A stretch of DNA of 36,146 bases. Origin: Gammaproteobacteria bacterium (GTDB lineage Bacteria > Pseudomonadota > Gammaproteobacteria > Arenicellales > UBA868). The notes beneath the pieces are model-generated. The model worked only from the letters and a program-made list of their open reading frames with translations. It was not told the DNA's origin and made no database searches. Location of the stretch: NCBI GenBank assembly GCA_016776875.1, contig JADHSN010000005.1, forward strand, positions 1-36,146, written 5' to 3'. A program made the translations under genes and the position numbers. This document shows, one piece after another, positions 7,756 to 20,071 of this stretch (positions are counted from its first letter, which is position 1; the number at the start of each line of letters is the position of its first letter).

Positions 7756-9183
7756 CTATAACTTCTTTAATTGTGCGAGAGCATCGAGCGCTCGTTTTCG
7801 ACCTGCATCAGGCTGAATGAGCGGCGCCGGGTAATCTTTGCCAATCTCGAGGTTTGCATCTTTAAGCACCTCCGCTGGAGCCAGCCACGGGGTGTGCAGA
7901 TATTTTTTTGGCAAATCCATGAGTTCGGGTACCCACTGCTTGATGTAATCCCCGTCTGGATCGAATTTCTGTCCCTGAAGCACCGGATTGAAAACACGGA
8001 AATAGGGTGCGGCATCTGCGCCGCAGCCCGCCACCCACTGCCACCCCGCCGAATTGCTCGCGAGATCAGCGTCCACCAATGTGTCCCAGAACCATTGCTG
8101 CCCGTGTTTCCAGTGGACCAGAAGATGTTTGACAAGCACGGACGCTGCGACCATTCGCACCCGATTGTGCATCCATCCGGTTTGCCAGAGTTGACGCATG
8201 CCGGCGTCAACAATTGGAAAGCCGGTACATCCTTTTTGCCAATCCGCGAGCGCATTGTCATCTTCGATCCATGGGAACTTTGAAAACTCTGGCCTGAAGC
8301 TTTTCTCAGGCATTTGAGGGAAATGAAACAAAAGATGTGCGCAGAATTCGCGCCACCCAAGCTCGCGCTGAAAGGACAAGGCGCCTTCGCTGGTCAGGTT
8401 CTGTTGATTGGTCGCGGCAAAAGCCTGAGCGGCGCTGATGTTTCCAAAATGGAGGTAAGGGGATAGACGTGAGGTGTTATCTTTCGCTGGGTAGTTGCGA
8501 TCCTGTTCATAATCAGGCGCGCGATGTACAAAGTTGGAAAGAGCCGCTTGCCCGCCGTCTTCGCCCGGTTGCCATACCGAATCGAATTGTTTCCCCCAGT
8601 TGGGTCGTTCTGGAAGCAAATTCCATGAGTCAAGGGATTCACTCTCCAAAGCGGTTTGAGAGAATACGGGCATCGACGACTGTTGAACGGCCCGCATGCT
8701 GGCTTGGGCTTTAAGACAATTTTTCCAAAACGGGGTGAACACCCGAAAAGGTGTACCGCTCTGGCTTTTAATCTCGGCGGGATCAAAAAGTAAATTGCCT
8801 TCAAAACCCTCTGAGCCGATCGCGTTTTTTTCCAACTCAGCGCGCAACAATAATTCATCCTTACGATCTGAAGGTTCGATTGCATTCGTCCAGTAGACGG
8901 CAGAGGCCCCGCTTTCTATTGCAATACTGGTTATTTCCTCGGCGGGATTACCGCTGCGAAGTACTATTTTTCCACCCGCATTTTGAACTTTTTGGCTGAT
9001 CTCACGCAAACTATGATGAAGCCACCAGCAACTGGCGGCACCCGGCAGCCAGGGGCGATCGGTTGCCGTATTCCGGATAAAACAAAGAATAACAGGACGG
9101 CCGTTCGCGCCCGCCGCTGCTAGTGCGGGGTGATCTTTCAGCCTCAACTCTTGTCGCAACCAAACGATAACGGGAGATTTCAT
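7756..9183 (-). CDS. phrB: Deoxyribodipyrimidine photolyase (class I CPD type)
   Basis: A 475-residue flavoprotein that uses near-UV/blue light to split cyclobutane pyrimidine dimers in DNA. The N-terminal antenna domain begins SPVIVWLRQELRLKDHPAL. The FAD domain shows TSRLSPYLHFGNIS (238–250), LGWREF (275–280), WMHNRVRMVAASVLVKHL (337–354) and DADLASNSAGWQW (371–383). Asn377 falls at the position of the E. coli flavin-N5 Asn, and Trp381 at the surface Trp of the electron-transfer triad. The ATG at 9183 is preferred over an in-frame one at 9231 because family proteins start directly at this strand. It is divergent from the DUF1295 gene, sharing a 99-base gap. It forms the left edge of the proposed light-response cluster. 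Confidence 0.93.
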   Translation of the reverse strand: MKSPVIVWLRQELRLKDHPALAAAGANGRPVILCFIRNTATDRPWLPGAASCWWLHHSLREISQKVQNAGGKIVLRSGNPAEEITSIAIESGASAVYWTNAIEPSDRKDELLLRAELEKNAIGSEGFEGNLLFDPAEIKSQSGTPFRVFTPFWKNCLKAQASMRAVQQSSMPVFSQTALESESLDSWNLLPERPNWGKQFDSVWQPGEDGGQAALSNFVHRAPDYEQDRNYPAKDNTSRLSPYLHFGNISAAQAFAATNQQNLTSEGALSFQRELGWREFCAHLLFHFPQMPEKSFRPEFSKFPWIEDDNALADWQKGCTGFPIVDAGMRQLWQTGWMHNRVRMVAASVLVKHLLVHWKHGQQWFWDTLVDADLASNSAGWQWVAGCGADAAPYFRVFNPVLQGQKFDPDGDYIKQWVPELMDLPKKYLHTPWLAPAEVLKDANLEIGKDYPAPLIQPDAGRKRALDALAQLKKL

Positions 9184-9282
9184 GACGATACCGGGACTTT
9201 CGAGAAACAGAGTGTAGCGCCGGCGGTGCAAATTTATGTCGTGTTACCGTTCATTCACATTGGCGATGACAAAATAGTAAAT

Positions 9283-10065
9283 ATGAATATGATCGCTTCT
9301 CATTTACTAATTGCATCCGCGGCCTGGTGCTTAGCGCTTTCCGTTGTCGCCTGGTTTTTCAGCGTCGTCCGCAGAGATGCGGGTATCGCCGATGTTTTTT
9401 GGCCGTGGTTCAGCGTGGGTAGCGCTGTGGTCTACGCGCTGGATGCATGGCCGCTGCCTGCAATATCTCTGGGATTTCTGGGTCTTCTGGCGGTTTCTGC
9501 GAGCCGTCTTTCCCTCGCCGTCATTCGGCGAACTCGTCGAGCGGGTGAGGACCGTCGATACTCTGATATCCGAAACCAGTGGGGGAAGGGGTTTGCGATA
9601 AAAAGTTTGCCCGGTATTTTCCTAATGCAGGGACTGATGGGTTTTACGCTAGCGGTGCCACTGGCTTACGCCGTCACGGGATTTGAAAATGCGTCGATCT
9701 TAAGTTTTCTATTTATCATCATATGGTCTTCAGGTTTCTTGGTCCAGGCGGTCGCAGATCGTCAACTTGCCGTATTCTCACGCACCGATGATGGAACCGG
9801 CGTGCTTTCGACTGGCCTTTGGCGATACAGTCGCCATCCTAATTATTTCGGCGAGCTTTGCATGATTTGGGCTATTTTCGCTCTGGCCGCTGCGAATGGC
9901 GGCGTTTGGACCCTGTTTGCACCGCTTTTGATGACCTGGTCTATCTTTCGATTTACCGGTATCACGAGAATGGAGGACGGTATATCGTCACGACGGCCTG
10001 GATATGAGAGTTATATGAAGAAAACGAGCGCCCTAATTCCACTCCCACCGCGTAAACACGTGTAG
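9283..10065 (+). CDS. DUF1295 membrane protein (steroid-reductase/ICMT-like)
   Basis: A 260-residue polytopic membrane protein from the ATG at 9283; ATG 9289 is equally possible, and an upstream in-frame ATG at 9130 lies inside the photolyase gene and is unlikely. The C-terminal motif GLWRYSRHPNYFGE is the signature of DUF1295 and the related 3-oxo-5-alpha-steroid 4-dehydrogenase/isoprenylcysteine methyltransferase fold, where it contributes to the cofactor site. About six hydrophobic segments are visible. DUF1295 proteins recur with photolyase, CFA and lipocalin genes in light-stress loci, which fits this position. The reaction is unknown; a lipid double-bond reduction is a reasonable but unproved guess. 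Confidence 0.85.
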   Translation: MNMIASHLLIASAAWCLALSVVAWFFSVVRRDAGIADVFWPWFSVGSAVVYALDAWPLPAISLGFLGLLAVSASRLSLAVIRRTRRAGEDRRYSDIRNQWGKGFAIKSLPGIFLMQGLMGFTLAVPLAYAVTGFENASILSFLFIIIWSSGFLVQAVADRQLAVFSRTDDGTGVLSTGLWRYSRHPNYFGELCMIWAIFALAAANGGVWTLFAPLLMTWSIFRFTGITRMEDGISSRRPGYESYMKKTSALIPLPPRKHV

Positions 10066-10130
10066 ATTCACGCTTGATTGACTCTCAAAGTTGACAATAC
10101 AAGCAGTTTTTTAACGAAAAAGGTGTCCAT

Positions 10131-10838
10131 ATGGAAGTGCAAAGCAAGGGAAGCGTATTGTTGGTTGAAGACCATCAGGATATCGCGGAATTGGTCTACG
10201 ACTACATGGAAGGCGAGGGCTACGAACTTGACTATGCGCCGGATGGCGAAGTCGGCATCAATCTTTGTGCGCAAAATGAGTACGATGCGATCATCCTGGA
10301 TTTAATGCTTCCACGAAAGGACGGTCTTTCCGTATGTCGCGAACTTCGCGACAAGATGGGAAAGACCACACCGGTATTAATGCTAACCGCTCGCGATACT
10401 CTGGAAGACAAGTTGAAAGGATTTGAACTCGGTGCCGACGATTATTTGGTCAAGCCTTTTGAGATACAGGAGTTAGAGGCCCGGGTTCGTGTGCTGATCA
10501 AGCGGGGCCATGCCTCACCGTCGACCACGGATTCCTTGCAGGTCGGCGGGATTGAGTTTGATCAGCAGTCGTTGGTGGTGACGCGCGATGGCCAGGAACT
10601 GGTGCTTTCCCCTATTGGCTTTAAGCTGCTTAAAATCCTGATGGAGCGGTCGCCATCGGTCGTGTCGAGACAAGATATTGAAAGAGAGATTTGGGGGGAT
10701 ATGCTCCCAGATAGCGACACACTTCGCAGCCACATGTATAACCTTCGTAAAGTCATTGATAAGCCGTTTGACTCAGCCTATTTGCAAACACTACCCGGAA
10801 TTGGCTATCGATTCTGTGAGCCCGATGCCGCCCATTAG
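10131..10838 (+). CDS. OmpR/PhoB-family response regulator
   Basis: A 235-residue two-component response regulator. The receiver domain has the acidic pair E13/D14, the phospho-acceptor Asp57 in IILDLMLPRKDG, Thr86 in MLTARD, and Lys108 in YLVKPF. A winged-helix DNA-binding domain follows, with the FDQQSLVVTRDG wing lead, SRQDIEREIWGD and the RSHMYNLRKVID recognition helix. The ATG at 10131 has AAAGGTG just upstream. Its end overlaps the start of the histidine kinase gene by 14 bases, so the pair is translationally linked. It is the first gene of the long overlapping chain with lipid-modifying genes, and is therefore the best candidate for that cluster's regulator. Its target sites are not identifiable by eye. 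Confidence 0.93.
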   Translation: MEVQSKGSVLLVEDHQDIAELVYDYMEGEGYELDYAPDGEVGINLCAQNEYDAIILDLMLPRKDGLSVCRELRDKMGKTTPVLMLTARDTLEDKLKGFELGADDYLVKPFEIQELEARVRVLIKRGHASPSTTDSLQVGGIEFDQQSLVVTRDGQELVLSPIGFKLLKILMERSPSVVSRQDIEREIWGDMLPDSDTLRSHMYNLRKVIDKPFDSAYLQTLPGIGYRFCEPDAAH

Positions 10839-12108
10839 GGCAGGAATTGTCCGACGCTTCACCCGCGTCGTTACCTTTCAACTCCTTCTCGTCGGATTAG
10901 CGGCGGCCCTCGGGACGTGGGGAGCCGGATGGATCATGAAAGAGATGCTCGTTCGGCAGGCACTTTCCACCGAGGCCGAGTATTTCTGGTCCGCTCGTGC
11001 TAATGATGATGCATTTCCGGCGCCCGATACCCGAAATTTAACCGGGTTCCTTTCGGGCTCTCCTGAGCTACCGGACGATCTCCGTTCATTGTCAACCGGC
11101 TTTCACGAAATGCCGAGCCCGGATCATTTTTCGGTTGTTCATGTGTCCGAGCGAGGCGGTGAAAGACTAACGCTCATATTTGAAGGCGAGCAGGTTCGGT
11201 CATTGGCACTTTGGTTTGGACTCGTTCCTCTGATGATTGTATTGGTAATTGTTTATGTTTCGCTTTATCTGGGCTATCGCTTCTACCGAGGGTCCGTTTC
11301 TCCGGTTGTCCGGCTTGCGCATGAAGTCGAGAATCTCCAGCTCGAATCAACCCAGCATCCGGATTTTGATGTCTCTGACCTGCCCCAAGGTGCTGATCGA
11401 GAAATTATGGTGTTGAGTGGTGCGCTTAAACATTTGGTTGAAAGGGTTAAGGAATTTATTGCGCGCGAGCGCGAATTTACGCGTGACGTGAGTCATGAAT
11501 TACGAAGTCCTTTGACGGTGGTTCGCGTGGCCTGCGATGTCGCATTAAAAGAGCCGTCGCTGGATGATCGGGTTCGAAAATCAATCACCAAAATACATCG
11601 AGCAGCAGCGCAGATGACAAATCTGATCGAAGCTTTTTTATTGCTCGCAAGAGAGCCCGATCGACACATTGAATCGAGCGTCGTTTGTTTAAACGATCTG
11701 CTGATGGAAGAGATTGATCGCGGGCGGACGCTTCTTGAGGGACGTTCTGTTTCTATCGAAACAAGTTTTTCTGACCGAATTATGGTTCGGGCACCTGAGC
11801 GGGTGCTTTCTGTATTGCTCGGCAACTTACTGAGAAACGCCTGTACCTATACAGACGAAGGAACAGTAACCGTGTCGATTTCAGGGCACTGCGTTACAAT
11901 TGAAGATACCGGGATCGGAATGTCAACACATGATCAGGATGTGGCGTTTCATGCCTTTAGCCGAGGAAGTCAAGCTAGACCGGGTGGCCACGGTGTGGGA
12001 CTTAATATAGTGAGAAAGTTGTCAGAGCGATTCGGCTGGCCTGTTAGTCTTACTAGCAGTCCGGGAAAGGGCACAAAGGCTGTTGTTGAATTTCCCGATG
12101 CCTTATGA
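10825..12108 (+). CDS. Sensor histidine kinase
   Basis: A 427-residue membrane sensor kinase, partner of the response regulator whose end it overlaps. The start is ATG 10825 (MPPIRAG); an upstream in-frame ATG at 10678 lies within the regulator gene. Seen in order: TM1 at about 14–38, a short periplasmic part of about 90 residues, TM2 at about 129–152, a HAMP-like linker, the HisKA H-box DVSHELRSP with His224, the N-box GNLLRNAC (Asn338), the G1 box DTGIGM (361–366) and the G2 box GGHGVGLNIV (387–396). The periplasmic part has no named sensor domain that I recognise. It contains an aromatic-rich beginning (EYFWSARANDD). The stop overlaps the next gene, a desaturase. A membrane-state or light-stress signal is inferred from context only. 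Confidence 0.92.
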   Translation: MPPIRAGIVRRFTRVVTFQLLLVGLAAALGTWGAGWIMKEMLVRQALSTEAEYFWSARANDDAFPAPDTRNLTGFLSGSPELPDDLRSLSTGFHEMPSPDHFSVVHVSERGGERLTLIFEGEQVRSLALWFGLVPLMIVLVIVYVSLYLGYRFYRGSVSPVVRLAHEVENLQLESTQHPDFDVSDLPQGADREIMVLSGALKHLVERVKEFIAREREFTRDVSHELRSPLTVVRVACDVALKEPSLDDRVRKSITKIHRAAAQMTNLIEAFLLLAREPDRHIESSVVCLNDLLMEEIDRGRTLLEGRSVSIETSFSDRIMVRAPERVLSVLLGNLLRNACTYTDEGTVTVSISGHCVTIEDTGIGMSTHDQDVAFHAFSRGSQARPGGHGVGLNIVRKLSERFGWPVSLTSSPGKGTKAVVEFPDAL

Positions 12109-13093
12109 GCAACTTAGACCAGATAATTTCGTGACTGACACTGAAGAAACCTCCGAAGACACTCCTTCCCGTTGGCAGACCTTCGTTTTTTGGCTCGTTA
12201 ATGACGCGCGCTATCTAGAGCGCACACGTTTTAGACCGCCACGCTCGCTCGACCTGTGGCGATTGATTCCGTTCTTAGCAATTCATCTTGGATGCTTCGC
12301 TGTTATCTGGGTCGGCTTCAGCTGGTTTGCGGTGGCGCTTGCTTTGTTGCTTTATTTGGGCCGGATGTTCCTGATTACTGCGTTTTACCATCGGTTTTTC
12401 GCACATCGCGCCTTCGAGAGCAGTCGTTCTTTTAGACTATTGGTGGCAATACTTGGGTGTACCGCGGGTCAGCGAGGTCCGATCTGGTGGGCCAGTCACC
12501 ATCGACAGCATCATCTTCACTCCGATACCGAGCTCGATCCGCATTCCCCTCAGACCGATACATTCTGGTTTAGTCATGTGCTTTGGTTTTTGACGCGAGA
12601 TGCATTTCCGATTCGCTGGAAACAAGTGAAAGACCTAAAAAAGTGTCGCGAACTGGTCGTTTTGGAAAGACTGGATTGGGTACCACTAATGGCGCTCGGA
12701 TTGCTTTGTTTTTTTATTGGAGAGTGGGTGCAATCGTCATATCCCAGCCTTGAAACGAGTGGCTGGCAGACACTAGTTTGGGGATTTTTCATTTCGACCA
12801 CTGCGCTTTATCACGCAACGTATACCATCAATTCTTTGGCGCATCGTTATGGGCGTCGACGGTTTGATACGCCGGACCATAGCCGAAATAATTTTCTACT
12901 TGCGCTGCTGACGCTGGGGGAGGGTTGGCATAACAACCATCATCGTTACCCAGGTGCGGCTCGGCAAGGATTCTATTGGTGGGAAGTTGATTTGTCCTAC
13001 ATGGGTTTAAGAGTGTTGAAGACTTTTGGTTTGGTTTGGAACCTGCGACCGGTACCCAGCAAGATTCTTGAGGCCGGTCGGGCTCGACGTTGA
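12098..13093 (+). CDS. Membrane fatty-acid desaturase (acyl-CoA delta-9 type)
   Basis: A 331-residue integral membrane di-iron desaturase. The three histidine boxes are HRFFAH (98–103), HHRQHH (134–139) and HNNHH in GEGWHNNHHRYPGA, the pattern of stearoyl-CoA/acyl-lipid delta-9 desaturases. TINSLAHRYG carries the additional His of this class. Four hydrophobic segments flank the boxes. ATG 12098 is chosen; it overlaps the kinase stop by 11 bases, and a TTG at 12083 is the only longer option. The stop overlaps the TTG of the COG2907 gene (TTGA at 13090–13093). It would supply the cis double bond that the downstream CFA-type methyltransferases need as substrate; this is inference from established CFA chemistry. 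Confidence 0.9.
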   Translation: MPYEQLRPDNFVTDTEETSEDTPSRWQTFVFWLVNDARYLERTRFRPPRSLDLWRLIPFLAIHLGCFAVIWVGFSWFAVALALLLYLGRMFLITAFYHRFFAHRAFESSRSFRLLVAILGCTAGQRGPIWWASHHRQHHLHSDTELDPHSPQTDTFWFSHVLWFLTRDAFPIRWKQVKDLKKCRELVVLERLDWVPLMALGLLCFFIGEWVQSSYPSLETSGWQTLVWGFFISTTALYHATYTINSLAHRYGRRRFDTPDHSRNNFLLALLTLGEGWHNNHHRYPGAARQGFYWWEVDLSYMGLRVLKTFGLVWNLRPVPSKILEAGRARR

Positions 13094-14343
13094 AAGTCGC
13101 TGTTGTGGGGGCCGGGGTATCAGGCCTGGTTTGTGCGCTCGGACTAAAACGCGATCACCAAGTCACCATATTTGACGCAGATCATCGCGCGGGTGGGCAT
13201 GCCAATACGCGTGTTGTGAAAGAAAACGGTCGGTCTATCGGAATCGATACCGGCTTTATTGTTTTTAACTTCAAAAATTATCCTCATCTCAGCGGGTTAT
13301 TTGATCGCTTAGGGGTTTCCTCCCAACCTTCGGATATGAGTTTCAGCGTCCGTTGTGAAAAAAGTGGATTCGAGTTCAGTGGTTCAAATCTGAACACTTT
13401 TTTTGCACAACGAAGGAACTTGTTCCGACTAGAGGCATGGCAATTGCTGCGATCTATTTTTGCTTTTCATCGCGACGGTAATGACGCCCTTAGGACAGAT
13501 ATAAGCGATGAGATTACCGTTGGCGAGTTCGCGAAGTATCGAGGCTATCGCCAGAATCTGATTGAACACTATTTATTACCGCTGGGCGGCGCGCTATGGT
13601 CGTGCTCCAGTGAATCTTTCAGTCAATTCCCTGTGCGTTTTTTTCTGGAGTTTCTTCGCAACCATTCGATGCTGCAGATGGAGGATCGACCGGTCTGGAG
13701 AACCGTCTCTGGGGGATCGCAACAATATGTGAAAAAGATAGTGAAGCAGTTGGAAAGCCAATTGCAGCTGGACCATTGTGTATCCCGCGTGACCCGCGTC
13801 GGCACGGGCGTTGACCTTGAATTTCATAATGGTAAACGCGAACATTTTGATGAGGTCGTGCTTGCTACGCATGCGGATACCAGTCTTGATCTGATGCAGG
13901 GGCCTGATGCGGAGGAGTCTGAAATCCTCGGCGCTTTTCCTTATCAGGATAACGTGGTCACACTGCACACGGATACCCGTGTGTTGCCCAAAGCGCAACG
14001 CGCGTGGGCCAGTTGGAATTATCGCGTTCGTGAGAATGCTTCAGCAGGTACCGGTGTCACCTACAACATGAATAAGTTGCAAGCGCTTGATGCGAAACAG
14101 ACCTATTGTGTTTCGCTAAATCAACACGATGAACTAGATCAGGATCGTATTTTGCGCCGTGAGGTCGTTAGGCATCCGCTGTTTACCCCAGGTCGCGACG
14201 AATTTCAAAAACGTCACCATCAGGTGATTCGCCGGCGGGCGATCAGCTTTTGTGGTGCGTATTGGGGGTTTGGATTTCATGAAGATGGTGTGCGCAGCGC
14301 GATTGCGGTTTGCGACGCTTTTGGTGTCGAGCGCCCATGCTGA
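13090..14343 (+). CDS. COG2907 FAD-dependent amine-oxidase-type protein (UfaD-like)
   Basis: A 417-residue flavoprotein. It starts at TTG 13090 with the dinucleotide motif VVGAGVSGLVCAL and the acidic FDAD at the end of strand 2, then RAGGHANT (the GG doublet of the amine-oxidase/desaturase superfamily). The C-terminus CGAYWGFGFHEDGVRSA is the FAD-closing motif. This is the COG2907 family. From memory of published work, the Rhodobacter sphaeroides member is UfaD, which desaturates a methylated acyl chain on the way to furan fatty acids. COG2907, DUF1365 and CFA genes are regularly adjacent, as here. There is no ATG at the start, but TTG gives the Rossmann strand its normal position. The furan-acid role in this organism is inference. 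Confidence 0.87.
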   Translation: MKVAVVGAGVSGLVCALGLKRDHQVTIFDADHRAGGHANTRVVKENGRSIGIDTGFIVFNFKNYPHLSGLFDRLGVSSQPSDMSFSVRCEKSGFEFSGSNLNTFFAQRRNLFRLEAWQLLRSIFAFHRDGNDALRTDISDEITVGEFAKYRGYRQNLIEHYLLPLGGALWSCSSESFSQFPVRFFLEFLRNHSMLQMEDRPVWRTVSGGSQQYVKKIVKQLESQLQLDHCVSRVTRVGTGVDLEFHNGKREHFDEVVLATHADTSLDLMQGPDAEESEILGAFPYQDNVVTLHTDTRVLPKAQRAWASWNYRVRENASAGTGVTYNMNKLQALDAKQTYCVSLNQHDELDQDRILRREVVRHPLFTPGRDEFQKRHHQVIRRRAISFCGAYWGFGFHEDGVRSAIAVCDAFGVERPC

Positions 14344-15092
14344 ATAGCAAGGTTTACGTGGGCCGTGTTTGCCATACTCGTATATGGCCTCAGCGGCATC
14401 AATTTTGCTATCGCCTGTTTATGCTCTATCTGGATCTTGATGAGATTCCGGATGTGTTTGACGCCTTTTGGTTATGGTCTGCACGCTCCACAGCACTTGC
14501 GCGCTTTAGGCGCTCTGATCATACGGGTAATCCGTCGCATTCCCTTGACCAGAGTATTCGTCATCTTGTTGAAAGTCAGTCCGGCGATAGGCCGGGCGGA
14601 CGAATTACATTGCTAACGCACCTGCGTTATTTTGGTTATTGCATGAACCCGGTTAGTTTTTATTTTTGCTGGGATGACTCAGGGCAGAAAGTGACACATG
14701 TTGTTGCTGAGGTAAACAATACCCCTTGGGGTGAGCAGCACTGTTACGTGCTGAAATGTCCTGAAAATGTAGCGTTGGGCGAAAAAAATTTCGAGTTTGA
14801 CAAGGTTTTTCACGTTTCGCCTTTTATGGAGATGAATCAACGCTATCACTGGCAGTTTTCACAGCCGGACCACGGCTTGGAGGTGACAATGCGCTCGTTT
14901 CAAGAGGGTCATTTAATGTTTTCTGCCAATCTATCGATGCAAGCCAGACCGATCACAAGCCGGAATTTGGCGCTTTGCCTCCTGCGTTTTCCAATAATGA
15001 CCGCCCGTGTTGTCGTCGCGATTTACTGGCAGGCAATGCTACTGTGGCTAAAACGTATCCCGTTTGTGCCGCATCCCAAATCCAATATTTAA
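14337..15092 (+). CDS. DUF1365 protein
   Basis: A 251-residue protein. ATG 14337 overlaps the stop of the COG2907 gene by 7 bases; an in-frame start at 14310 is less likely. The N-terminus SKVYVGRVCHTRIWPQRHQFCYRLFMLYLDLDE is the hallmark start of DUF1365. The core motif HLRYFGYCMNPVSFYFCWD is followed by VAEVNNTPWGEQHCYVL, also family-specific. No catalytic residues are known to me. DUF1365 consistently travels between COG2907 flavoproteins and CFA synthases, which suggests a role in modified fatty-acid synthesis; the exact step is undetermined. It is followed after 11 bases by the CFA synthase gene. Confidence 0.88.
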   Translation: MLNSKVYVGRVCHTRIWPQRHQFCYRLFMLYLDLDEIPDVFDAFWLWSARSTALARFRRSDHTGNPSHSLDQSIRHLVESQSGDRPGGRITLLTHLRYFGYCMNPVSFYFCWDDSGQKVTHVVAEVNNTPWGEQHCYVLKCPENVALGEKNFEFDKVFHVSPFMEMNQRYHWQFSQPDHGLEVTMRSFQEGHLMFSANLSMQARPITSRNLALCLLRFPIMTARVVVAIYWQAMLLWLKRIPFVPHPKSNI

Positions 15093-15103
15093 TAGCATTC
15101 CTG

Positions 15104-16384
15104 ATGATGAGTGATAATGCGAGAACATTTTTGGAACCTTCGAATGCGGCGGAACTCTCGTGGTTTCAGCAACAATGCCGGCGCATGTTGTTTCGTAGGC
15201 TGTCAGACCTGAATGGTCGACTGGTGATTGAAGAGGCAGGGATCTCGCATTCATTTGGTGACGATATGGGTATCAGTGCCCATATTGAAGTAAAAGATCC
15301 CGATTTTTTTTCCGACATCGCTTTGCGCGGTAGCCTGGGCGCCGCAAAAGCGTGGATGGATGGAACGTGGTCTAGTCAAGACTTAACACAGGTGTTCGCA
15401 ATTCTGGCCCAGAATCCAGCGCTCACTGACGGTTTTGATCGGGGATGGTCTCAAGTCGCAGCACGAGCCGCGAGCCGGTTTCATGAAAAACGACGTAACT
15501 CCCCTAGGGGCAGTCGTCAAAATATCGCCGATCACTATGATCTCGGCAATGCGCTGTTTGATCTGTTTCTGGATCGATCAATGAATTATTCCAGCGCATT
15601 CTTCAATTCCGACCGTGACTCACTTGATACAGCCGGGCAGAACAAATTAGAGCGGATTTGCAACAAGCTTTCGCTTGATGCCTCTCATCACGTCCTTGAG
15701 GTCGGTTGCGGATGGGGCGGGTTTGCGATTCATGCAGCCTCTCGATTCGGATGTCGAGTGACGGGTATTACGATTTCGCAAGAACAATTTGAGTTCGCCA
15801 AAGCGAAAGTGATCGAGGCTGACTTGACAGATCAAGTTGAGATTGTGCTTTGTGATTATCGGGATCATCAAGGTCAATATGATCGCGTGGTTTCGATTGA
15901 GATGATAGAGGCGGTGGGACAGGAATTTTTGGGCGATTATTTTTCGAAAGTTCAATCGTTTTTGAAGGATAACGGCGCCGCTTTATTGCAGGCGATCACA
16001 ATGCCTGATCAGCGATATGCGCAATATCTCAAAGGCTGTGATTTTATTCAGCGGTATATATTCCCCGGGAGTTGTGTGCCATCTTTAGGCGCGATCAATG
16101 AGGCCGTTCGTCAGCGCACTGATCTCAAATTGGTGGATCTTGAGGATATCGCGCCTCACTATGCAGAAACTTTGCGCCGGTGGCGGGACAATTTTAATGC
16201 GCATCGGGAAGAGATTCGGGCTTTGGGCTACCCTGAGCGTTTTATTCGACTTTGGAATTATTATTTTTGCTACTGCGAGGCGGGGTTCGACGAGCGTTAT
16301 TTATCCGATCTTCAAATCGTACTGACCCGTCCGAAATGGCGTGGTGAGGTTCCCCGCCGCCTGGGTAACCGGAGTTCGTGTTGA
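15104..16384 (+). CDS. cfa: Cyclopropane-fatty-acid-phospholipid synthase family methyltransferase
   Basis: A 426-residue SAM-dependent enzyme that adds a methylene or methyl carbon to double bonds of phospholipid acyl chains. ATG 15104 (or 15107) lies just after the DUF1365 stop; the frame is open further upstream, but that part lies in DUF1365. The N-terminal lipid-binding domain has GAAKAWMDGTWSSQDLT. NIADHYDLGNALFDLFLD and MNYSSAFF precede the SAM motif VLEVGCGWGGFA. DRVVSIEMIEAVG and FIQRYIFPGSCVPS follow, then HYAETLRRWRDNF, the family's C-terminal signature. In related loci this gene is called cfaA or ufaM; whether the product is cyclopropane or methylated/furan acyl chains cannot be read here. 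The stop overlaps the DUF2878 start. Confidence 0.9.
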   Translation: MMSDNARTFLEPSNAAELSWFQQQCRRMLFRRLSDLNGRLVIEEAGISHSFGDDMGISAHIEVKDPDFFSDIALRGSLGAAKAWMDGTWSSQDLTQVFAILAQNPALTDGFDRGWSQVAARAASRFHEKRRNSPRGSRQNIADHYDLGNALFDLFLDRSMNYSSAFFNSDRDSLDTAGQNKLERICNKLSLDASHHVLEVGCGWGGFAIHAASRFGCRVTGITISQEQFEFAKAKVIEADLTDQVEIVLCDYRDHQGQYDRVVSIEMIEAVGQEFLGDYFSKVQSFLKDNGAALLQAITMPDQRYAQYLKGCDFIQRYIFPGSCVPSLGAINEAVRQRTDLKLVDLEDIAPHYAETLRRWRDNFNAHREEIRALGYPERFIRLWNYYFCYCEAGFDERYLSDLQIVLTRPKWRGEVPRRLGNRSSC

Positions 16385-16944
16385 GTCGCACTGTCATTAT
16401 TAACTTTGTTGCCTTTCAAGCGGCCTGGTTTATTGCAGTGCTCGGCGCAGCCGGAGGTTATCCCTGGATGGGCCCGATCGCTGTTCTGGGTTGGATAGCC
16501 GCTTTTTGGGTTTGGCATCCACCAGCCCGGGATGACTTGGTGTTATTGGTAGGGGCTGGCTTGATTGGATTTGCGGCGGACTCTCTATCGGTACTGACCG
16601 GCGTGATCAGCTTTCCTCAGGCTGCGGGTCCCGGCTTCCCAACCACCATCTGGATGATTGCGCTCTGGATTAATTTTGCAGCGTCGATCAGGCACAGTCT
16701 CAACTGGATTCGGGGTCGATACGCATTAGGCCTGGTGTTTGGTGGCATTGGTGGACCGTTGGCCTATTTTGCGGGCGAAAAGATGGGAGCGCTTGTGATT
16801 CATTCCCCGTTGGGTGTGGTGCTGGCATGGGTAGTTGCGATGCCGCTTATGCTTTTGCTGGAACAAGCGTCAGACCGAAGCCTTTCGCGTCAGTCAGTCT
16901 CGGCTGACCGCTATGCTTTGGATACGGATCAGGAGAAATTATGA
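16378..16944 (+). CDS. DUF2878 membrane protein
   Basis: A 188-residue polytopic membrane protein. GTG 16378 (or the adjacent TTG 16381) overlaps the CFA synthase stop. It has about five hydrophobic helices, with conserved-looking PTTIWMIALWINFAASIRHSLNW and FGGIGGPLAYFAGEKMG, the pattern of DUF2878. The C-terminal tail is polar and cytosolic. DUF2878 genes recur next to CFA synthase, lipocalin and COG2907 genes in light-response loci of gammaproteobacteria. No activity is established. Its stop overlaps the next ATG (ATGA at 16941–16944), continuing the coupled chain. Confidence 0.85.
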   Translation: MLSRTVIINFVAFQAAWFIAVLGAAGGYPWMGPIAVLGWIAAFWVWHPPARDDLVLLVGAGLIGFAADSLSVLTGVISFPQAAGPGFPTTIWMIALWINFAASIRHSLNWIRGRYALGLVFGGIGGPLAYFAGEKMGALVIHSPLGVVLAWVVAMPLMLLLEQASDRSLSRQSVSADRYALDTDQEKL

Positions 16945-17978
16945 GCGTGTTTTCGCAATTCGCTTTTTGGGCAGTGGACTCGGGCTATGTGCCTGATCTC
17001 GCCATTCGGGCAGGCATACGGGCACTTTGTAGGCAACGACTGAAAGACATCAGCGTGTCAGATGAGCATTTGCCTCAACGTTTGCAGGGATTTATTCAAG
17101 ATCTCGATCGGGCGCCTGTCGCCCCTCTTGTCGAGAAAGCAAACGAGCAACATTACGAAGTGCCAGCGCGATTTTTTGAGTGCGTATTGGGTACTCATCT
17201 GAAATACAGCAGTGCGCACTGGGATGGTGTCGATGCTTTGGATGATGCCGAAGCGCAGGCATTGACTTTGTCATGCGATCACGCCGGTCTTGAAGATGGG
17301 CAGGAAGTGCTGGAGCTCGGCTGTGGTTGGGGTTCGCTGACGCTTTGGATGGCAGCCGCATATCCAAATTCCAAAATAACAGCGGTCTCGAATTCTGCGT
17401 CCCAACGGGAATTTATTGAATCCCGGGCAATCGAGCGAAAGTTAACAAACCTCCAGGTGATTACAGCGGATATCAATCACTTGGCGCTGGATCAGAGTTT
17501 TGATCGCATAGTCTCGGTTGAGATGTTTGAACATCTTCGAAACTATCGCGAGATTTTTGACCGGGTAGGGGCTTGGTTGAAACCTGAAGGCCGGTTTTTT
17601 ATGCATATTTTTTGTCATAAGACCATTCCTTATTTTTTTGAGGACAACGATGGATCAGATTGGATGAGCCGTCATTTTTTTTCAGGCGGAATGATGCCAA
17701 GTGCAGACCTCCCATTGAAATTTCAAGATTCGCTTTGCTTTGAAAAAAGATGGGACTGGAGCGGCGTTGAATATCAAAAAACGTCAGAGGCTTGGTTGAA
17801 TAAATTAGACGCGGCTCATGATGATGTTTTTAATATTTTTTCTGAAACCTATGGGAGAGCAAACGCGAAGATGTGGGTGAACCGTTGGCGCGTATTTTTT
17901 ATGGCATGTGCCGAGTTATTCGGAATGCACGGAGGAGATGAATGGCGGGTTTGTCATTATCTTTTTACTAAACGTTGA
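16941..17978 (+). CDS. CFA-family SAM methyltransferase resembling coclaurine N-methyltransferase
   Basis: A 345-residue SAM-dependent methyltransferase, second of the CFA superfamily in this cluster but shorter and clearly different from the first. Seen: NEQHYEVPARFFECVLG, LKYSSAHW, motif I VLELGCGWGSLTLW, AVSNSASQREFIE, DRIVSVEMFEHLRNY, FMHIFCHKTIPYFFED, DWMSRHFFSGGMMPSADL, TSEAWLNKLD, and the tail WRVFFMACAELFG. As I recall them, these motifs match plant (S)-coclaurine N-methyltransferases and their bacterial relatives much more closely than E. coli CFA synthase. The substrate could be a lipid double bond, a lipid amine or a small amine. It starts in a 4-base overlap with DUF2878 and is followed 9 bases later by a lipocalin, so it is firmly part of the operon. 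Confidence 0.85.
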   Translation: MSVFSQFAFWAVDSGYVPDLAIRAGIRALCRQRLKDISVSDEHLPQRLQGFIQDLDRAPVAPLVEKANEQHYEVPARFFECVLGTHLKYSSAHWDGVDALDDAEAQALTLSCDHAGLEDGQEVLELGCGWGSLTLWMAAAYPNSKITAVSNSASQREFIESRAIERKLTNLQVITADINHLALDQSFDRIVSVEMFEHLRNYREIFDRVGAWLKPEGRFFMHIFCHKTIPYFFEDNDGSDWMSRHFFSGGMMPSADLPLKFQDSLCFEKRWDWSGVEYQKTSEAWLNKLDAAHDDVFNIFSETYGRANAKMWVNRWRVFFMACAELFGMHGGDEWRVCHYLFTKR

Positions 17979-17987
17979 GGAGTTTGA

Positions 17988-18542
17988 GTGAAACAAATTT
18001 TTGGGCGCAAGAGCGCGTTAATAGCAGTCCTTATGGCGGCAGTCGGGACTGCCGCATGTTCTTTTCATGCCATGGCGGTTGAGCCACTTAAGCCCGTTGA
18101 TTATGTGGACCTGGAGCGCTTTATGGGGCCTTGGTATGTGATCTCGTCGACGCCTACCTTTATCGATAAGGAAAGTTTTAACGCGATTGAGGAGTACACC
18201 CTCACGGACGACGGCACGATTCAAACAAAATTTTCATTTTTTGACGGCGGTTTTGATGGACCGCTAAAAACTTATCATCCCAAGGGGTTTGTGAAGGAAG
18301 ATGGCTCAAATGCAGTGTGGGGCATGCAGTTTGTTTGGCCGATAAAGGCGGATTATCAGATCGTTTATCTCAATGACGACTACTCACGCGTCATTGTGGC
18401 TCGCGAAAAACGAGATCTCGTATGGCTAATGGCGAGGGAGCCATCGATTCCGGACGATGAGTATCAGGCGCTGTTAGCCCAAATTGTCGCGCTGGGTTAC
18501 GAGGAGTCCAGTTTGCGCCTGACACCTCAGAAATGGGATTAG
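17988..18542 (+). CDS. Blc-like lipocalin lipoprotein
   Basis: A 184-residue bacterial lipocalin. GTG 17988 has GAGGAG six bases upstream. The N-terminus is a lipoprotein signal with lipobox GTAAC (Cys24). The first lipocalin motif is DLERFMGPWYVISSTP, where GxW closes the barrel. Strands such as IQTKFSFFDGG and DYQIVYLNDDYSRVIVAR follow, and LVWLMAREPSIPDDEYQALLAQIVALGY is the Blc C-terminal signature. Blc proteins sit in the outer membrane and bind fatty acids or lysophospholipids. In this cluster it could store, shuttle or repair modified or peroxidised lipids; that is inference. Its last 10 bases overlap the start of the cryptochrome-like gene. Confidence 0.9.
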   Translation: MKQIFGRKSALIAVLMAAVGTAACSFHAMAVEPLKPVDYVDLERFMGPWYVISSTPTFIDKESFNAIEEYTLTDDGTIQTKFSFFDGGFDGPLKTYHPKGFVKEDGSNAVWGMQFVWPIKADYQIVYLNDDYSRVIVAREKRDLVWLMAREPSIPDDEYQALLAQIVALGYEESSLRLTPQKWD

Positions 18543-20071
18543 CGCCCGTCGGTGAAAAACCCGGTTCGGCTACAGGAAGCCTTTTTTTGGTCCTTCCTGG
18601 ACAATGCTTTTCGATTCGAGAGTTAAAGCCCTGGCTGAATTGCACTTTTATTCTGTCTGAGTGCAGCTTTACGATTGTTGGAGAAAACCATCATCAACTC
18701 AAAATGGTGATGATGCTGGCGTCCTTGCGTGAGTACGCGGACACCCTCCGAACCGCCGGCGCGCAGGTTTGCTATTACCCTCTTGATGGGCTGGAAGGTG
18801 ATACGTTTTTAGAGCAAATGAATCGAGCGATGAAAGCGGCGGGTAGTAAGGACCTTATCCATTTTGAGATTGAAGACCAACCGGCGGCTCAGGAAGTCAG
18901 GGATTGCGCAAATCATTTAGGGTTAAAAACCAGGATACTTCCCAGTCCAATTTTTCTTTGCTCTCGAGAAGGGTTCGCTGATTATTTGGCAAAAGAATCC
19001 CGCCCTCGAATGGTCAGTTTTTATCGCCAGCAACGGGTTCGTTTGGGCATGCTGGTTGATGAAGATGGTGCGCCGACCGGTGGTCAATGGAGTCTGGATG
19101 CGGAGAATCGGCGACCGTTAGCGAAGGCGGTTGAACCTCCACCGCCCAGTTTCCCGCGCCCCAGTCCGTCCACCCAGAAGGTGATGCGTTTGGTTGCGGA
19201 GCGTTTCCCGACTTATCCTGGTGATGCCAGTCGATACCAATACCCCGTTAATCATCGTCAAGCGAAGCGCTGGTTGGATGCATTTATAAAAGAGCGCCTC
19301 AACCTGTTTGGTGACTTTGAAGACGCGCTGACTACCCGCTCAGATGTTGTTTTTCACTCTTTGATCTCGCCTTTAATGAACTTCGGATTGCTCGATCCCC
19401 GACAAGTCCTGGCGGCAGTATTTAAGTTTCATCAAAAAAATCCGGTGCCGCTGAATAGTTTGGAAGGCTTTATTCGACAGGTGATTGGTTGGAGAGAGTT
19501 TGTGAGAGGCATTTATCATAATTTTGGTGATGAACAACGAAGCGGTAATTTTTTTGAACATTCCTCAGGACTGACCGATGATTGGTATAAGGGGACGACG
19601 GGTATTGACCCCTTGGATCATGTCATCCAAAAGACGCAATCTATGGGTTGGGCGCACCACATCGAGCGTTTAATGGTGGTGGGCAACCTGATGAATCTGG
19701 CTCGTATTCATCCACAAGCGGTTCATCAATGGTTTATGGAGATGTATGTTGACTCGGCTCACTGGGTCATGGGCCCTAATGTCTATGGAATGGCGCTTTT
19801 TAGCGACGGCGGGATTTTTGCGACAAAGCCCTATATTTGCGGTTCCAGCTATATCCGAAAAATGGGCGACTATGGAAAAGGCGATTGGTGTGACGTGGTC
19901 GACGGCCTGTATTGGCGTTTTGTGCATGACCATCAGGCGTATCTCGCAAAAAATCATCGAACGGCGATGATGCCAAGAAACCTGGCACGATTAAAGGCCG
20001 ATCGTCGCGAGACTATTTTTAGCGCGGCAGATGATTTCCTGAAGCGAAAAACTATTATCCAGTCCGTCTGA
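18533..20071 (+). CDS. Photolyase/cryptochrome of the Fe-S (FeS-BCP, COG3046) family lacking cluster cysteines
   Basis: A 512-residue protein of the deoxyribodipyrimidine photolyase-related family, whose known members are prokaryotic (6-4) photolyases/cryptochromes with FAD, a lumazine antenna and a 4Fe-4S cluster. Seen: SLREYADTLRTAGAQVCYYPL in the antenna domain, FIRQVIGWREFVRGIY, AHHIERLMVVGNLMNL (His375/His376, matching the catalytic-region histidines), WVMGPNVYGMALFSDGGIFATKPY, SYIRKM and LYWRF. Four cysteines normally bind the cluster, including a CxxC after SYI..M and ACPF before LYW. Here CxxC reads GKGD (448–451), the stretch before LYW is about ten residues shorter and lacks ACPF, and the upstream Cys position is Pro360. 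The cluster is therefore probably absent. ATG 18533 overlaps the lipocalin end. Confidence 0.88.
   Translation: MGLAPVGEKPGSATGSLFLVLPGQCFSIRELKPWLNCTFILSECSFTIVGENHHQLKMVMMLASLREYADTLRTAGAQVCYYPLDGLEGDTFLEQMNRAMKAAGSKDLIHFEIEDQPAAQEVRDCANHLGLKTRILPSPIFLCSREGFADYLAKESRPRMVSFYRQQRVRLGMLVDEDGAPTGGQWSLDAENRRPLAKAVEPPPPSFPRPSPSTQKVMRLVAERFPTYPGDASRYQYPVNHRQAKRWLDAFIKERLNLFGDFEDALTTRSDVVFHSLISPLMNFGLLDPRQVLAAVFKFHQKNPVPLNSLEGFIRQVIGWREFVRGIYHNFGDEQRSGNFFEHSSGLTDDWYKGTTGIDPLDHVIQKTQSMGWAHHIERLMVVGNLMNLARIHPQAVHQWFMEMYVDSAHWVMGPNVYGMALFSDGGIFATKPYICGSSYIRKMGDYGKGDWCDVVDGLYWRFVHDHQAYLAKNHRTAMMPRNLARLKADRRETIFSAADDFLKRKTIIQSV

Follow-up and report, generated by a model that had tools for sequence, protein, structure and literature searches.

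A PhrB-type photolyase without iron-sulfur cluster ligands in a marine gammaproteobacterium belongs to a multi-phylum clade

Introduction

A gene of a marine gammaproteobacterium (Arenicellales, UBA868) encodes a PhrB-like photolyase that possesses none of the four cysteines with which its characterized relatives hold a [4Fe-4S] cluster, and it raises the question of whether such a protein still repairs DNA and whether the missing ligands are the property of one sequence or of a lineage. What the cluster does in PhrB-type photolyases is still described as unknown (PMC12082625). Family members without the cysteines have been recorded in several surveys. They account for about 7% of 464 family members (PMC4619345), they include several orthologs of the PhrB-type enzymes (PMC12082625) and most picocyanobacterial Phr2 proteins (PMC9426592), and among 110 prokaryotic (6-4) photolyases the only ones lacking all four cysteines are the 20 members of subgroup M, including PromaPL of Prochlorococcus (PMC9178010). 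An earlier note on this DNA described the protein as one that had lost all cluster ligands, and suggested that it had either changed from repair to light sensing or continued to repair without the cluster. The cluster-free clade was thus already published, and the note could not see that the state is clade-wide.

Here, we describe a sequence, structural and phylogenetic analysis of this protein and its gene neighbourhood. The window comprises the whole stretch of 36,146 nucleotides (GCA_016776875.1, contig JADHSN010000005.1, positions 1 to 36,146, forward strand). We present evidence that the protein belongs to a large clade from which the ligands are uniformly absent, and that it very probably still repairs UV-damaged DNA.

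Results

The open reading frame at 18533..20071 (forward strand) encodes a cluster-free photolyase of the PhrB/CryB, or prokaryotic (6-4), type. The 512-residue product contains the DPRP N-terminal domain (PF04244, 161 bits) and the FAD-binding domain FAD_binding_7 (PF03441, 33 bits), and its closest sequences in the PDB are Caulobacter Cc(6-4)PL (9hnk, 1e-85), Rhodobacter CryB (3zxs, 4e-84) and Agrobacterium PhrB (4dja, 1e-80). An AlphaFold model with a mean pLDDT of 94.7 superimposes on PhrB 4dja with an rmsd of 2.2 Å over 493 residues (Z 44.6). In the PDB, the model finds its top structural matches exclusively among prokaryotic (6-4) photolyases (Z 42-45), and other photolyases reach Z values of at most 27. 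The reading frame and residue numbers given in the earlier note (P360, HH375-376, C436, GKGD448-451 and C453) all proved correct on translation.

Alignments with 4dja and 3zxs, as well as an alignment of 234 homologs, place Pro360 (19610..19612, forward strand) at PhrB Cys350, the first cluster ligand, Gly448 at Cys438, a gap at Cys441 and Asp454 at Cys454, so that the four cysteines defining the FeS-BCP subtype (PhrB 350, 438, 441 and 454) are represented by P, G, a gap and D. This agrees with the note's description of a CxxC motif replaced by GKGD, a deleted segment and a proline at the upstream cysteine position. The site of Cys350 is occupied by proline in 99% of cluster-free sequences and by cysteine in 100% of cluster-type sequences. 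The region of residues 436-461 (CGSSYIRKMGDYGKGDWCDVVDGLYW; 19838..19915, forward strand), where cluster-type enzymes carry Cys438, Cys441 and Cys454, contains a loop that is 10 residues shorter. The deletion is real, because the interval from PhrB Tyr430 to Tyr460 spans 20 residues here and 30 in 108 of the 121 cluster-type sequences. The structure prediction that the note had called for shows residues 436-461 at a pLDDT of about 95-98, forming a short turn that leads into a helix (451-466). Since PhrB proteins with single cluster cysteines replaced are insoluble or unexpressed (PMC4619345), the cluster-free proteins must have a rebuilt loop, modelled here as this turn and helix; the shortened loop and the new helix cap would presumably fulfil a structural role.

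The distribution of the ligands was determined in homologs from evenly drawn genomes, in which 49 of 274 Gammaproteobacteria, 67 of 240 Alphaproteobacteria and 23 of 199 Planctomycetota had a match, and in the best 80 of 587 matching stretches of a named genome collection (mostly SAR11, with Woeseiaceae, Phycisphaerae, Bdellovibrionota and Methylophilaceae also represented); the remaining gamma- and alphaproteobacterial matches were likewise fetched and checked for ligands. The 234 usable sequences fell into 121 with all four cysteines and 113 with none, with no mixed case. Within the random draws, with the centres left out, cluster-free sequences made up 7 of 48 gammaproteobacterial and 9 of 66 alphaproteobacterial homologs. 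The 113 cluster-free sequences span Gamma-, Alpha- (mostly SAR11) and Betaproteobacteria, Planctomycetota and Bdellovibrionota. The homolog of Persicobacter (Bacteroidota) also has no cluster cysteine and joins the cluster-free branch. All four cysteines are present in named plasmid-borne homologs of Halarchaeum, Haladaptatus, Pseudanabaena, Nostoc, Synechocystis, Streptomyces, Rhizobium and Vibrio.

Two contigs filed as viral also encode photolyases of cluster-free character. IMGVR_UViG_3300006481_000154 encodes one with the full cluster-free motif and may be a misfiled cellular contig; IMGVR_UViG_3300016474_001053 (83 kb), which may likewise be cellular, encodes one with proline at the first ligand site. 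A search of phage records for the photolyase gave no match.

The note had proposed a tree as the means of deciding whether cysteine loss marks a clade, and the absence of the ligands does define one. In a tree of 88 rows computed without the ligand columns, the cluster-free rows occupy one side of a single branch (SH-aLRT 100), and the ligand state changes once, compared with a mean of 29.5 changes after shuffling. Support for the clade was 99/100 after the addition of haloarchaeal, cyanobacterial, actinobacterial and class I outgroup sequences. The position of the root is less certain. In the first outgroup-rooted tree the cluster-free set was sister to the cluster-type set (SH-aLRT 94 and 86), and with the haloarchaeal, cyanobacterial and actinobacterial members included the cluster-type set fell on one side of a branch in 14% of bootstraps only. 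The branch leading to the outgroup has a length of about 5 changes per column, and consequently both loss and primary absence of the cluster are compatible with the tree. The ligand change goes back to the ancestor of a clade spanning several phyla, and its direction, which hangs on the uncertain root, is not proven; the note was right that the ligands are absent, and its word "lost" goes beyond this.

The same arrangement is found throughout the genus. Besides the genome of origin, 12 of 19 same-genus genomes searched contain an ortholog, and all 11 orthologs that can be read over the region (62-94% identity) lack the ligands. The twelfth, in genome G004, is broken by runs of N that represent assembly gaps, and a splitting of this gene by insertions was rejected on that ground. 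The ratio dN/dS between genus members is about 0.07-0.16 (about 0.1), indicating purifying selection. The agreement of 11 same-genus genomes and the dN/dS of about 0.1 led us to reject a pseudogene or a sequencing error. The missing ligands are therefore not an individual oddity; they are the state of the whole clade.

Two other cysteines near the old site are typical of the clade. Among cluster-free sequences, 95% have Cys436 and 89% have Cys453; both are almost never found in cluster-type sequences, and Cys453 aligns one residue ahead of PhrB Cys454. This pattern could indicate that the pair holds a cluster, or some other metal, in the former ligand site, and the earlier note had named Cys436 and Cys453 as residues that might fill it. 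A [4Fe-4S] cluster normally takes three or four cysteine ligands. The protein has two cysteines C-terminal of residue 340, and 103 of the 113 cluster-free sequences have at most three. Nor is the pair obligate, as the two positions read C/N in seven sequences, S/C in four and S/Q in one, and Persicobacter has neither cysteine. The cysteines are thus too few for a [4Fe-4S] site, and judged by the sequences a refilled metal site is hardly credible.

The residues on which repair depends are, in contrast to the ligands, fully retained. The pair His375-His376 (19655..19660, forward strand), which the note had reported as kept, is invariant in 234/234 sequences, and His376 corresponds to PhrB His366, which is essential for (6-4) repair (PMC4619345). 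In PhrB, (6-4) repair is abolished or reduced when His366, Tyr424 or Tyr430 is mutated (PMC4619345). None of the 234 sequences differs from PhrB at His366, Leu370, Trp390 or Met410, and wherever the position is covered the same holds for Tyr424, Tyr430, Asp179 and Asp254; the protein studied here accordingly has His376, Tyr434, Tyr440, Asp189 and Asp264.

These residues bear on the substrate. A cluster-free photolyase could act on cyclobutane pyrimidine dimers (CPDs) instead of (6-4) photoproducts, as the authors of PMC9426592 suggested for cluster-free Phr2, the phr2 form of Synechococcus RS9916 protecting against UV-B and UV-C. However, His376, Tyr434 and Tyr440, whose PhrB counterparts are needed for (6-4) repair, are invariant in the clade, the genome already encodes a class I photolyase beside the gene block described below, and the cluster-free PromaPL is named a (6-4) photolyase in PMC9178010 and PMC9426592. 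CPD repair is therefore an unlikely reading, and (6-4) photoproducts are the probable substrate.

The electron chain is conserved in part. Trp400, equivalent to the medial electron-transfer residue Trp390 of PhrB, never changes in the clade, whereas the distal Trp342 of PhrB is replaced by Tyr352, with a tryptophan (Trp351) one residue before it. Tyr352 is among the positions that distinguish cluster-free from cluster-type sequences, as are Pro360, Met387, Met413, Cys436, Trp452, Asp457 and Gly458. Most of the clade has the Trp351-Tyr352 pair, Phe-Tyr is found in some SAR11 and other sequences, and three cluster-free members from Planctomycetota have tryptophan at both positions. The electron route therefore probably varies within the clade, to judge from these residues. 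Four cluster-free Planctomycetota sequences (L090, L134, L173 and L174) retain tryptophan at the Trp342 position, and thus the ligands and the distal tryptophan did not change together everywhere.

The putative antenna site differs as well. The motif at residues 21-25 (18593-18607, forward strand) reads GDQ in cluster-type sequences, GNQ in most cluster-free sequences and PGQ in every member of the genus; Glu43, by alignment the antenna-site glutamate of the family, is invariant. The PGQ motif may reflect an antenna that is different or absent in the genus. CofH, an enzyme of F420/FO synthesis that bears on an 8-HDF antenna, scored above the cut-off in two genomes of the genus that do not have the photolyase (G001 and G012) and in none of eight searched genomes with it; the genomes are incomplete, which may explain this split.

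The photolyase gene is the last of a conserved block. It is preceded by a Blc-type lipocalin gene (PF08212; 17988..18542, forward strand), the last 10 bases of which overlap the start of the photolyase gene, and the two genes are adjacent in 10/10 same-genus contigs examined. Upstream lies the membrane-modifying part of the block, encoding a DUF1365 protein, cyclopropane-fatty-acid (CFA) synthase, a DUF2878 protein and a second CFA-type methyltransferase (14310..17978, forward strand), and before it are genes for a DUF1295 protein, an OmpR-type response regulator, a histidine kinase, a fatty acid desaturase and an FAD amine oxidoreductase (9130..14343, forward strand). As far as the contigs reach, this order holds in the genus from the DUF1295 gene at the block start through the DUF1365 gene to lipocalin and photolyase. 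Divergent from the block is a gene for a class I type photolyase/cryptochrome of 491 residues (PF00875 and PF03441; 7756..9231, reverse strand), found at the same position in genomes G010 and G009. The interval 9130-20071 is thus a genus-conserved membrane-modifying and photoprotection block with its own two-component system and a divergent class I photolyase alongside. In Vibrio cholerae, blue light induces a CFA synthase gene as well as operons that contain photolyase genes (PMC5241685). The block supports a role in photoprotection, with gene order, not co-transcription, as the basis; promoter and terminator scans gave a signal no higher than in shuffled sequence.

The two-component system within the block could also be taken to favour a cryptochrome-like blue-light sensor without repair activity, as could the regulatory role of Rhodobacter CryB, a cluster-type relative, and the exchange of the distal electron-transfer tryptophan for tyrosine, which could alter flavin photochemistry. 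Cryptochromes often have lost repair residues or acquired a C-terminal extension. In this protein the repair residues are all kept, the gene is under purifying selection, and the match of its 512 residues to the whole fold leaves no added signalling domain or C-terminal extension. A cluster-free relative, moreover, confers light-dependent UV protection in vivo. We found no positive support for a change from repair to light sensing, and consider a sensor without repair very improbable.

Discussion

We conclude, with a probability of roughly 0.85, that the protein belongs to the cluster-free branch, subgroup M, and works as a light-driven (6-4) photolyase. Repair without the cluster, the second possibility raised by the earlier note, is well supported by the invariant (6-4) residues, purifying selection, the predicted PhrB fold and the photoprotection neighbourhood, all of which, like the absent ligands and the clade, were computed for this protein, and by the light-dependent UV protection conferred by a cluster-free relative. 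In such an enzyme, blue light would excite the reduced flavin, which would then hand an electron to a (6-4) lesion that has flipped into the pocket; His376 would serve as proton donor, and Asp189 and Asp264 would form the Mg site. No [4Fe-4S] cluster would be bound, the cysteine loop being replaced by the predicted short turn into helix 451-466, and electrons would probably travel through the retained medial Trp400 and a distal site where Tyr352, preceded by a tryptophan, stands for PhrB Trp342.

Genomes with a cluster-free copy are smaller (median 1.4 Mb) than those with a cluster-type copy (median 3.4 Mb; Mann-Whitney p 3e-6, kinship uncorrected), and iron saving behind the cluster-free form in small genomes is only a suggestion. 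A bolder and so far doubtful proposal is that the clade possesses a coherent replacement of the cluster, consisting of a Trp452-Cys453/Asp457-Gly458 helix cap together with Cys436, along with a re-routed electron chain and iron saving in small-genome marine lineages such as SAR11. If this were true, the clade would be a natural control for what the PhrB cluster does and does not do. The cluster cannot simply be removed from PhrB, because the single-cysteine mutants are insoluble, and a large natural clade without it, SAR11 included, in which every tested (6-4) residue is kept provides ready-made comparison enzymes. The present protein adds one member to a known clade; more useful are the all-or-none pattern of the ligands and the changes in the electron chain that are linked to it.

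The protein fits the published subgroup M on the basis of its defining trait, a PhrB-like protein without any of the four cysteines, and of the literature, PromaPL and Phr2 having been compared by description. Like them it has PhrB-like N-terminal and FAD domains, no cluster cysteines and relatives in several phyla with which it groups, but its genus carries the unusual PGQ antenna motif and not GDQ or GNQ. Synechococcus RS9916 survives UV less well when its phr2, described as cluster-free, is disrupted, and phr2 shields Escherichia coli against UV in a light-dependent manner (PMC9426592). The same paper describes a V. cholerae Phr2-like protein as lacking the cluster cysteines, but a homolog from Vibrio tritonius has all four, and the V. 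cholerae enzyme is listed as an FeS-BCP (PMC9178010). The cluster-free photolyases of SAR11 (Pelagibacteraceae), at about 40-44% identity, share the clade and the missing ligands and differ in their GNQ motif and gene neighbourhood. The FeS-BCP enzymes PhrB (4dja), CryB (3zxs) and the Caulobacter enzyme (9hnk) share the fold (2.2 Å, Z about 45), and PhrB His366, Tyr424, Tyr430, Trp390 and the Mg-site aspartates 179 and 254 all have their counterparts here. In contrast to these enzymes, at 33-34% identity, the protein lacks the four cysteines, has a loop 10 residues shorter, and carries Tyr352 in place of Trp342 and Phe401 in place of Tyr391.
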